Positions 52,434 through 54,424 of a stretch of DNA of 64,000 nt are shown one piece after another. Position numbers and translations under genes: made by a program. The notes beneath the pieces were generated by a model. It did not search any database and was not told the origin of the DNA. It worked only from the letters and a program-made list of their open reading frames with translations. Each line of letters begins with the position of its first letter. The stretch's first letter is position 1. The DNA is from Thermococcus radiotolerans. Lineage in GTDB: Archaea > Methanobacteriota_B > Thermococci > Thermococcales > Thermococcaceae. Location: positions 1,116,001-1,180,000 of the forward strand of contig NZ_CP015106.1 in NCBI RefSeq assembly GCF_002214565.1, given 5' to 3'.

Positions 52434-52450
52434 CCTCTTTTATTTTTCTT
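52434..52450 (+). terminator. T-rich terminator of the Nfn operon
   Basis: CTCTTTTATTTTTCTTT begins right after the sudA stop and contains a five-T run; no hairpin is needed in archaea. Confidence 0.45.
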
Positions 52451-53534
52451 TGAAGCACGCTTCCAGTATCGGATCGGGAATGTGGTAATAGACGTTTCTG
52501 CCTTCTTTAACCTTCTCAAGGAACGAAGAATCGACGAGAGCTTTCAGAAGCCTCGCCAGTACACTGTCCGCCACACTTTTACCCTCCTTCCTTTCGAGGT
52601 GTTCTTTTATTTCCTCCCACGTTCTCTTGCCATGGGAGATGGCCCTCATTATCTCGACGTACCGGTTCCTCGCGGCAGGTCTCTTTGAGAGAAAGTTCTC
52701 GAATTCATCCATGGCAAGGGCCTTCGCCTCATCAAAGACATCGTCAATGAGCCTCTCGGAGAGCCCTTTTTCCATGGCTTTTCTGCCGAAGAGAACCAGC
52801 CATCCCACTATTCCATCGAGTCTCTCAACTGCAAGGCTTATAAGTTCATCCTGGGGCATCAATCCAACCTGCTCAAAGCCTTTCTGGAGGAAATCCCTGC
52901 TCTGTTCGGGTGTGAATCTCCCCAGGGAAATCTCATGGAAGTACCTGCCGTAGAGGGGAGCCTTGGGGTCATCGGTACCGAGGTAATCGTGAAGCAGGCC
53001 CACCTCTGAACCCGTCATGACCATTCTGAGGTCGGAGTAGTCGTACAGGTGGGCAATTAAGCCGGCAAACTCGCTCCCGACCGGCCCGCGGAGGTACTGG
53101 ACCTCATCAAAAGCGAGGACAACGTCGTACTTTTCCAGCTCACGGAAGAGCGCTATGAGATCGGTTTTCTCCTCTTTCCAGGAAAAGCTCACTCCGAGGC
53201 TCAGAACCCGAAGACCGGCTATGTTTTTGAGCTCGGTTTTAATCTCCTCCCAGAGGTTACGGTTTTCGCGGAAGAATTCATTGATGGAGCTTTCTATTCT
53301 TTTGTAAACATCCATGCGGGAGTTGGCGTTGACACCCCGGAAATCTACGAGAACGTAGGGAATGGCGAGCTCATTGAGACCTACCACTAGCAGGGAAGTC
53401 TTTCCAAGCCGTCTTATACCAGTGATAACCGTTAGGGGATTCCCGGAGGTGATGGACTTCTCGAACTCCTTCAGCTCCGCTTCTCTGTCGTACAAATCCT
53501 CACGCTTCCTCTTCGGTCTGATGTCAAAGTACAC
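52440..53534 (-). CDS. Archaeal AAA-type ATPase (PF01637)
   Basis: The 364-aa protein has the archaeal ATPase fold: DREAELKEFEKSITSGNPL, P-loop GIRRLGKTSLL (GxxRxGKTS), Walker B VVLAFDEVQYLRGP, sensor VMTGSEVGLLHDYLG, and a winged-helix C-terminus (about 290-364). Such ATPases are often orphan genes in mobile-like settings; function unknown. GTG 53534 is chosen because GGGGTGG precedes it by 5 nt; GTG 53543 lies in that site. A perfect 22-bp palindrome covers its promoter. It converges on the Nfn operon. Confidence 0.88.
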   Translation of the reverse strand: MYFDIRPKRKREDLYDREAELKEFEKSITSGNPLTVITGIRRLGKTSLLVVGLNELAIPYVLVDFRGVNANSRMDVYKRIESSINEFFRENRNLWEEIKTELKNIAGLRVLSLGVSFSWKEEKTDLIALFRELEKYDVVLAFDEVQYLRGPVGSEFAGLIAHLYDYSDLRMVMTGSEVGLLHDYLGTDDPKAPLYGRYFHEISLGRFTPEQSRDFLQKGFEQVGLMPQDELISLAVERLDGIVGWLVLFGRKAMEKGLSERLIDDVFDEAKALAMDEFENFLSKRPAARNRYVEIMRAISHGKRTWEEIKEHLERKEGKSVADSVLARLLKALVDSSFLEKVKEGRNVYYHIPDPILEACFKEK

Positions 53535-53542
53535 AACTACCA

Positions 53543-53564
53543 CCCCAGTAGTTAACTACTGGGG
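53543..53564. promoter_or_regulatory. Perfect 22-bp palindrome, candidate operator
   Basis: CCCCAGTAGTT is followed directly by its reverse complement AACTACTGGGG. It lies between the leftward TATA element (53570-53577, CTTATAAC) and the ATPase start, and upstream of the same element as read rightward toward the sRNAs. Confidence 0.75.
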
Positions 53565-53569
53565 CAGAA

Positions 53570-53577
53570 GTTATAAG
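53570..53577. promoter_or_regulatory. Bidirectional TATA element
   Basis: GTTATAAG is usable on both strands: leftward for the AAA ATPase gene, rightward for sRNA A, with a predicted start near 53600. Confidence 0.5.
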
Positions 53578-53616
53578 GATTTCGTGATGTTTATCAGTGA
53601 GTAGGTAGAGATGATT

Positions 53617-53696
53617 ACCGGCGATGACGAGCCCTGGAGTGGCTGAAACTGCGCTTTGCGCAGCACCGTGATGAGGGGCATACTGGCCGAGCCGCT
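53617..53696 (+). ncRNA. Box C/D-type sRNA A with extended internal hairpin
   Basis: Elements in order: stem CGGC (53619-53622); C box ATGACGA (53624-53630, one base off RTGATGA); 12-nt guide; D' CTGA (53643-53646); hairpin CTGCGC-TTT-GCGCAG (53649-53663); C' GTGATGA (53668-53674); 12-nt guide; D box CCGA (53687-53690); stem GCCG (53691-53694). The changed positions in the C and D boxes are the two that normally form the U-U pair of the kink-turn; both are C here. The long hairpin between D' and C' is unusual. A rightward TATA element lies at 53570-53577. Confidence 0.7.
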
Positions 53697-53698
53697 AG

Positions 53699-53706
53699 AC
53701 TTTTAA
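53699..53706 (+). promoter_or_regulatory. TATA-like element for sRNA B
   Basis: ACTTTTAA lies about 25 bp upstream of the first base of sRNA B, so the second sRNA may have its own promoter. Confidence 0.4.
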
Positions 53707-53726
53707 CCTTCTCCAGAGTAGAAAAA

Positions 53727-53805
53727 GCGAGCGATGAAGACCTCTAGGGTATCTGAAACCGCGCTTCACGCGGCAAAAATGATGAAGGTCAGAAACTGAG
53801 CTCAA
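53727..53805 (+). ncRNA. Box C/D-type sRNA B with extended internal hairpin
   Basis: Elements: stem GAGC (53729-53732); C box ATGAAGA (53734-53740, one mismatch); 12-nt guide; D' CTGA (53753-53756); hairpin CCGCG-CTTCA-CGCGG (53759-53773); C' ATGATGA (53779-53785); 10-nt guide; D CTGA (53796-53799); stem GCTC (53800-53803). The order and spacing repeat those of sRNA A while both guides differ, as expected for duplicated guide RNAs with different targets. Confidence 0.72.
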
Positions 53806-53857: not shown

Positions 53858-54262
53858 TCAGAGACTCTCAAGGTACTCGGCGTACGCCTTGGCGTCCATA
53901 AGCTCCTTGAGCTCCTCGTCGAGGTTGCTCGGCTTGAGCTTGGCTATCCAGTTCTCGTAGGGGTCCTCGTTGATGAGCTCCGGGCTGTCCTCCAAAGCCT
54001 CGTTGACCTCAGTGACCTCGCCGCTGACCGGGGCGTAGACCTCGGAAACGGCCTTGACGCTCTCCAGCTCACAGAGAACGTCGCCCTTGTTGACCTCCTT
54101 ACCAACCTCAGGAAGCTCGACGTAGGCCAAATCGCCGAGCTCCTTCTGGGCGTAGTCGCTTATTCCGACGAGAACGGTTCCGTCCTCAAGAACCTGGGCC
54201 CACTCGTGGTCCTTCGTGTAGTAAAGGCCTTCCTTGACCTTGTATTCCCCAACCTCAATCAT
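53858..54262 (-). CDS. gcvH: Glycine cleavage system H protein
   Basis: The 134-aa protein has YYTKDHEWAQV, VGISDYAQKELGDLAYVELP and the lipoyl-Lys region CELESVKAVSEVYAPVSGEV. H protein carries the aminomethyl group between glycine cleavage enzymes; it may also serve in lipoate metabolism. GGTGA lies 5 nt before ATG 54262. No P, T or L protein gene is in the window. A TATA-like GGTTTAAATC lies on this strand near 54296-54305. Confidence 0.95.
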   Translation of the reverse strand: MIEVGEYKVKEGLYYTKDHEWAQVLEDGTVLVGISDYAQKELGDLAYVELPEVGKEVNKGDVLCELESVKAVSEVYAPVSGEVTEVNEALEDSPELINEDPYENWIAKLKPSNLDEELKELMDAKAYAEYLESL

Positions 54263-54424
54263 GAGCATCACCATTTTCCTCTAGAACCGCCTGAGATTTA
54301 AACCTTTCCATAACGAGCCCTCCACGGTGGGGTTCCGAGAGAGCTACGCAAAAACCTTCGATTTTTCAGACATTATCCGAACGGATTTCACATTTTCGGG
54401 CAATATCTTTGCGTCTACAAAATC

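Follow-up and report, generated by a model that had tools for sequence, protein, structure and literature searches.

Tandem box C/D guide sRNAs of Thermococcus with a derived, sporadic hairpin between boxes D' and C'

The 64-kb stretch of DNA analysed here (the window) belongs to a genome of 1.87 Mb whose relatives are Thermococcus. On its plus strand lie two tandem intergenic box C/D 2'-O-methylation guide sRNAs, A and B, flanked on either side by an ORF on the minus strand (Table 1). Both RNAs carry boxes C, D', C' and D in order, guides within the range of 9-13 nt and a terminal stem; every box, guide, stem and hairpin listed in the original prediction was recovered from the sequence at its place, as was a TATA-like element for each RNA. 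These elements are situated 23-29 nt upstream of A and B, and their counterparts in relatives were judged by eye; a sigma-70 promoter scan is inapplicable to archaea and was disregarded. An orthologous A/B pair exists in most Thermococcus genomes. Also present at the locus, 5' of the minus-strand ATPase-like ORF, is a 19+19-nt inverted repeat (AACTACCACCCCAGTAGTTAACTACTGGGGCAGAAGTT, 53535-53572), which is found at the same place in many relatives and may be an operator of the ATPase-like gene family.

Table 1. Features of the A/B sRNA locus in window coordinates
Feature	Position	Strand	Basis
ATPase-like ORF, flanking the sRNA pair	52440-53543	minus	name by sequence reading
TATA-like TTTATC, 5' of A	53590-53595	plus	sequence; several relatives have a similar TTTATC
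sRNA A, box C/D guide, homologue of Pyrococcus sR51 (RF01305)	53619-53694	plus	boxes, stem, cmscan, orthologues across the family
A terminal stem CGGC/GCCG, 4 bp		plus	sequence
A box C, ATGACGA, 3b position C	53624-53630	plus	sequence
A D' guide GCCCTGGAGTGG	53631-53642	plus	sequence, target scan, orthologues
A box D', CTGA	53643-53646	plus	sequence
A D'-C' spacer, 21 nt	53647-53667	plus	sequence
A hairpin CTGCGC-TTT-GCGCAG	53649-53663	plus	fold vs shuffles
A box C', GTGATGA	53668-53674	plus	sequence
A D guide GGGGCATACTGG	53675-53686	plus	16S pairing, conservation
A box D, CCGA	53687-53690	plus	sequence
TATA-like CTTTTAA, 5' of B	53700-53706	plus	sequence; most relatives compared have CTTTTA between A and B
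sRNA B, box C/D guide	53729-53803	plus	boxes, stem, orthologues in genera g1, g2, g4, g5, g6
B terminal stem GAGC/GCTC, 4 bp		plus	sequence
B box C, ATGAAGA	53734-53740	plus	sequence
B D' guide CCTCTAGGGTAT	53741-53752	plus	sequence, target scan, orthologues
B box D', CTGA	53753-53756	plus	sequence
B D'-C' spacer, 22 nt	53757-53778	plus	sequence
B hairpin CCGCG-CTTCA-CGCGG	53759-53773	plus	fold vs shuffles, covariation
B box C', ATGATGA	53779-53785	plus	sequence
B D guide AGGTCAGAAA	53786-53795	plus	sequence, target scan, orthologues
B box D, CTGA	53796-53799	plus	sequence
ORF resembling glycine cleavage H protein, other flank	53858-54274	minus	name by sequence reading

sRNA A matches the Rfam family sR51 in cmscan with 35.9 bits (E 2.6e-6) against a gathering score of 38, and falls slightly short of this threshold because of its insert and its different D' guide; Thermococcaceae orthologues of A without the hairpin exceed the gathering score, with 48.0 and 59.5 bits. 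Pyrococcus sR51 and A have in common the boxes and a D guide to 16S rRNA, the sR51 D guide GGGCAUACUGGC being identical in A in the cmscan alignment, whereas a 21-nt spacer with a hairpin in A takes the place of 3 nt in sR51 and the D' guide is a different one. The D guide of A is conserved in the genera where A was found. It forms 12 bp with 16S rRNA, including one G-U (score 11.3, compared with 9.6 at 95% of shuffled maxima), and from the N+5 position of this complementarity A is predicted to direct 2'-O-methylation of 16S U1152 (local numbering). For the D' guide GCCCTGGAGTGG, the complementarity scan of rRNA and tRNA gave no convincing target. Many relatives have GCCTCACGRTAG in its stead, and with GCCTCACGGTAG or a similar guide, likewise seen in many relatives, 16S C1017 is a candidate site. 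Within Thermococcus the D' guide of the sR51 homologues falls into very different types (GCCTCACGRTAG, CCCTGGAGTGG, CTCCGGAGTGG) and the D guide is fixed. A natural broken sRNA was observed in genome G042 (L003/L043), where the 5' half of A is gone and sequence from the adjacent ATPase ORF joins the hairpin directly; what is left of A is the hairpin, the C' box and the D guide.

sRNA B has no specific Rfam family: the best match of the window copy is sR17 with 19 bits (threshold 36), and that of its orthologues is snoPyro_CD with 36.3 bits, below the threshold of 45. Its D' guide is almost invariant across genera in the last 11 nt. A candidate target of this guide, 23S C2537, pairs over 10 bp with two G-U, which is not above chance and not convincing; tRNA-Cys, the other candidate, offers good pairing but has an internal mismatch at guide position 4 and is not convincing either. 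No target for the D guide of B was found among rRNA and tRNA in the complementarity scan. In many species this guide is A-rich and degenerate and is followed by an altered D box, so that B behaves as a single-guide sRNA; the degenerate form occurs in orthologues without a hairpin as well. The search for guide targets in rRNA and tRNA, named beforehand as a check, was successful for the D guide of A, and none of the other three gave a convincing site. As originally predicted, A and B are archaeal C/D sRNAs. That they are chance look-alikes instead of expressed sRNAs is scarcely credible, considering the conservation of guides, boxes, stems and promoters over the family, the Rfam match of A, and the fact that homologous families are established Pyrococcus sRNAs.

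The C'/D' motif of archaeal C/D sRNAs forms a K-loop bound by L7Ae, and a D'-C' spacer of 3-5 nt is the rule. This short K-loop-type spacer, a usual though not strictly defining feature, is found in neither A nor B. The hairpins in their spacers, singled out as unusual in the original prediction, each fold better than 99% of mononucleotide shuffles (A, -9.1 kcal/mol; B, -8.0 kcal/mol; p=0.002 in both cases), and that of A is retained in the fold of the whole RNA. For long spacers in general the median is -8.0 kcal/mol, with p<0.05 against mononucleotide shuffles in 27 of 51, and weak hairpins exist (G020_A, -3.5 kcal/mol; G026_C2, -0.7 kcal/mol). Folded whole, neither A nor B is distinguished from shuffles by its energy, as is expected of C/D sRNAs. 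Covariation, named beforehand as a check of the hairpin, is present among B orthologues. In 18 distinct sequences, changes on both sides of the stem occur at four of the six pairs and 89.7% of the cells are paired; double-changed cells number 13 versus 5.7 in shuffles (0 of 500 as high). The covariation score is 0.371 versus 0.214 in shuffles (0 of 500) and at most 0.162 when the stem is slid, and since such scores are inflated by related sequences the slid control carries most weight. By inspection, an internal loop of 2 x 3-4 nt separates the C'/D' motif from the stem in A and B, and neither shows the canonical K-turn arrangement, in which a helix is set directly against the 3-nt bulge and the tandem G.A pairs; in some relatives, such as G042_B, the stem almost abuts the motif. 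In the K-loop of Pyrococcus C/D sRNAs (Nolivos et al. 2005, cited in PMC7089733) boxes C' and D' are the same and have the same position as here, but the loop is closed by a few unpaired nucleotides, where A and B have a hairpin.

At the terminal C/D motif, box C and box D of A and box C of B deviate from consensus at 3b/3n. The predicted C.C in the C/D motif of A proved correct and is common in Thermococcus, with 22 of the 46 A orthologues carrying it. In A and B orthologues the terminal 3b.3n is C.C, A.U or G.C and seldom U.U, and that of C'/D' is almost always U.U; in B, A at 3b goes with U at 3n (Fisher p=1.6e-7, relatedness ignored), and four C'/D' motifs among the A orthologues have C.C on both sides. 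Under the rules of McPhee et al. (PMC4382518), C at 3b permits folding in metal ions alone and Watson-Crick pairs do not; because of the latter, these choices are suggestive only as a further sign of selection on K-turn stability.

A was collected from 46 genomes and B from 64. The A spacers comprise 35 of up to 8 nt, six of 12 nt and five of 21 nt; those of B comprise 33 of up to 8 nt, five of 9-14 nt and 26 of at least 15 nt. Both have 3-4 nt in all outgroup genera, and no outgroup genome matched has an A, B, sR14-type or snoR9-type spacer outside the short range of 3-7 nt. Spacers of 3-9 nt occur in orthologues whose guides are the same as those of A and B: in G047, whose A guides are identical, the sequence is CTGA-CCC-GTGATGA, compared with CTGA-AACTGCGCTTTGCGCAGCACC-GTGATGA in the window. 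G024, presumably T. kodakarensis, is among the orthologues without a hairpin. The hairpin is derived, not ancestral, and sporadic within Thermococcus. The original description of it as conserved holds inside this genus, in some species, but not beyond it nor in the many Thermococcus with short spacers. Deeply conserved DNA matches at the locus were considered as traces of the hairpin and turned out to be the D guide of A and the D' guide of B. The idea of a duplication that formed a distinct sRNA subfamily was abandoned: the guides are unrelated, A is the homologue of sR51, and in genus g5 A and B are near each other without hairpins. A recent A/B duplication was likewise rejected, as only the boxes and the hairpin are alike and A and B without hairpins have just the boxes in common.

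A near-identical hairpin module, RAC-YGCGC-UYY-RCGCRG, was found in at least seven unrelated Thermococcus C/D sRNA families, namely sR51, B, snoR9, sR12, sR14, sR39 and an sR39 paralogue; the sRNAs other than A and B were found by pattern search and covariance model and named by Rfam, the paralogue being a weak sR39 match. No earlier description of the module was found in the open-licence literature. The exact pattern occurs at 14 sites in 94 genomes, 13 of them between intact D' and C' boxes and the fourteenth in the truncated A copy of G042, and the reversed control pattern has no match in the same 94 genomes. With none of the 14 exact matches outside C/D sRNA genes, a mobile element or dispersed repeat was rejected; bacterial matches to a longer hairpin pattern in a contig scan were taken as chance or unrelated repeats. 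For an unbiased picture, sR14-type and snoR9-type sRNAs were searched by guide and not by hairpin. For the sR14 type, 45 genomes have a short spacer and six have one of hairpin length. The snoR9-type spacer is short in most genomes and long in nine; three or four of these nine carry the module itself, and the rest have hairpins or inserts of other sequence. The window's own genome holds snoR9-, sR14-, sR12- and sR39-type copies without the hairpin. In many Thermococcus 3 nt separate the sR14-type D box from the start codon ATG of the HAD-family hydrolase gene that follows it (L324-L358), so that the sRNA gene directly adjoins coding sequence.

The near-identity of the module in unrelated sRNAs and its strict position would also suit a hairpin that binds a further protein or RNA, through which the sRNP would gain an extra function in regulation, localisation or recruitment, and the variable presence of the hairpin would suggest that such a role is specialised, not core. 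However, the loops and stems of B vary freely (CTTCA, CTTTG, TTTT, GCTTA, CCCT) with pairing kept, which fits recognition of shape and not of sequence, and snoR9-type hairpins of very different sequence stand at the same place. We regard an extra partner as improbable.

In a tree built from a single gene of the neighbourhood (26 genomes, 666 columns; 11 of 23 inner branches weakly supported), the presence of the hairpin changes at least twice in A, six times in B, three times in the snoR9 type and four times in the sR14 type, numbers that whole-locus transfer between species could mimic. Each of the four sR14-type hairpins compared has a 9/9 arm-plus-loop match to some A or B hairpin (null 0.001 each, with bases drawn independently and the kinship among the four rows ignored), and the sR14-type sRNA of G066 and A of G020 both read ACTGCATTTC, including a weakened stem. 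These likenesses suggest that the hairpin was copied from one sRNA gene to another and did not arise by convergence, although selection on the sequence may also account for them. G026_B, from a genome that we take to be T. onnurineus, looks like the transfer of a longer stretch between species, because its second guide differs as well. The module would probably enter the D'-C' spacer by recombination or copying between sRNA genes with common flanking boxes; guide diversity has been proposed to arise from recombination between sRNA genes and from mobilised guide regions (PMC4644070). Frequent gain and loss might also mean that the D'-C' loop tolerates nearly any self-folding insert and that the hairpin is near-neutral, without a selected benefit, a view that agrees with its sporadic presence and many losses, with different inserts in several lineages and with degraded copies. 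It is opposed by the compensatory changes that maintain the B stem, by the GC-rich, stable nature of the stems and by the long B spacers (26 of 64 orthologues), which extend across much of the genus, and we consider it unlikely.

We propose, with reasonable though far from full confidence, that A and B are ordinary C/D guides whose K-loop is extended by a GC-rich hairpin of 5-6 bp that caps C'/D' and favours L7Ae binding, and that this hairpin is an optional module of at least seven families, often gained and lost and probably copied between sRNA genes. The cap would render the K-loop K-turn-like, with a helix on both sides, which would favour folding of C'/D' and binding of L7Ae at high temperature and would stop the two guide arms from misfolding; target choice would stay with the guides, A acting on 16S U1152 and B on an unsettled site via its conserved D' guide. 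A precedent is st-sR26, an engineered P. furiosus sR26 with a K-turn instead of the K-loop, whose particle proved stable enough for days at 55 C (PMC7089733); the hairpins would be its natural counterpart. In this laboratory construct, as in the natural hairpins, a helix closes the C'/D' side in one continuous strand, although the natural ones usually leave a small internal loop before the stem. Several observations speak against the proposal: the stem does not directly abut the C'/D' motif, from which it is usually set off by 2 nt in one strand and by several in the opposite one, and is no textbook K-turn; most orthologues do well without it; and some hairpins are weak.

A capping hairpin could instead alter the architecture of the particle, by favouring a mono-sRNP over a di-sRNP or by causing unequal use of the guides. 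A two-strand RNA without an internal loop gives a different particle in vitro (review, PMC3608112), and in B the D' guide is conserved and the D guide degenerate. Yet st-sR26 still formed the apo di-RNP, its oligomeric state unchanged, and its activity pattern at D' and D was the same (PMC7089733); the D guide of B is degenerate in the absence of the hairpin too. An architectural effect appears rather improbable. Returning to the stabilising cap, a more specific version, which we put forward only tentatively, holds that recombination at shared boxes has carried copies of one short, position-specific hairpin module from guide-RNA gene to unrelated guide-RNA gene, always into the D'-C' spacer, and that in some Thermococcus lineages this has made K-loops K-turn-like and adjusted the stability of the sRNP separately for each guide.

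The role of the internal loop in the shape and stability of the archaeal C/D sRNA particle has so far been debated on the basis of artificial RNAs. Natural pairs exist in Thermococcus: one guide RNA, its guides unchanged, has a capping hairpin in some species and lacks it in others that are related, and part of these species can be cultivated, so that the internal-loop question becomes directly testable in vivo and in vitro. The suggested exchange of internal parts between guide RNAs bears on the evolution of guide sets, and in the RNAs that carry it the hairpin probably makes the RNA-protein complex hold together more tightly.
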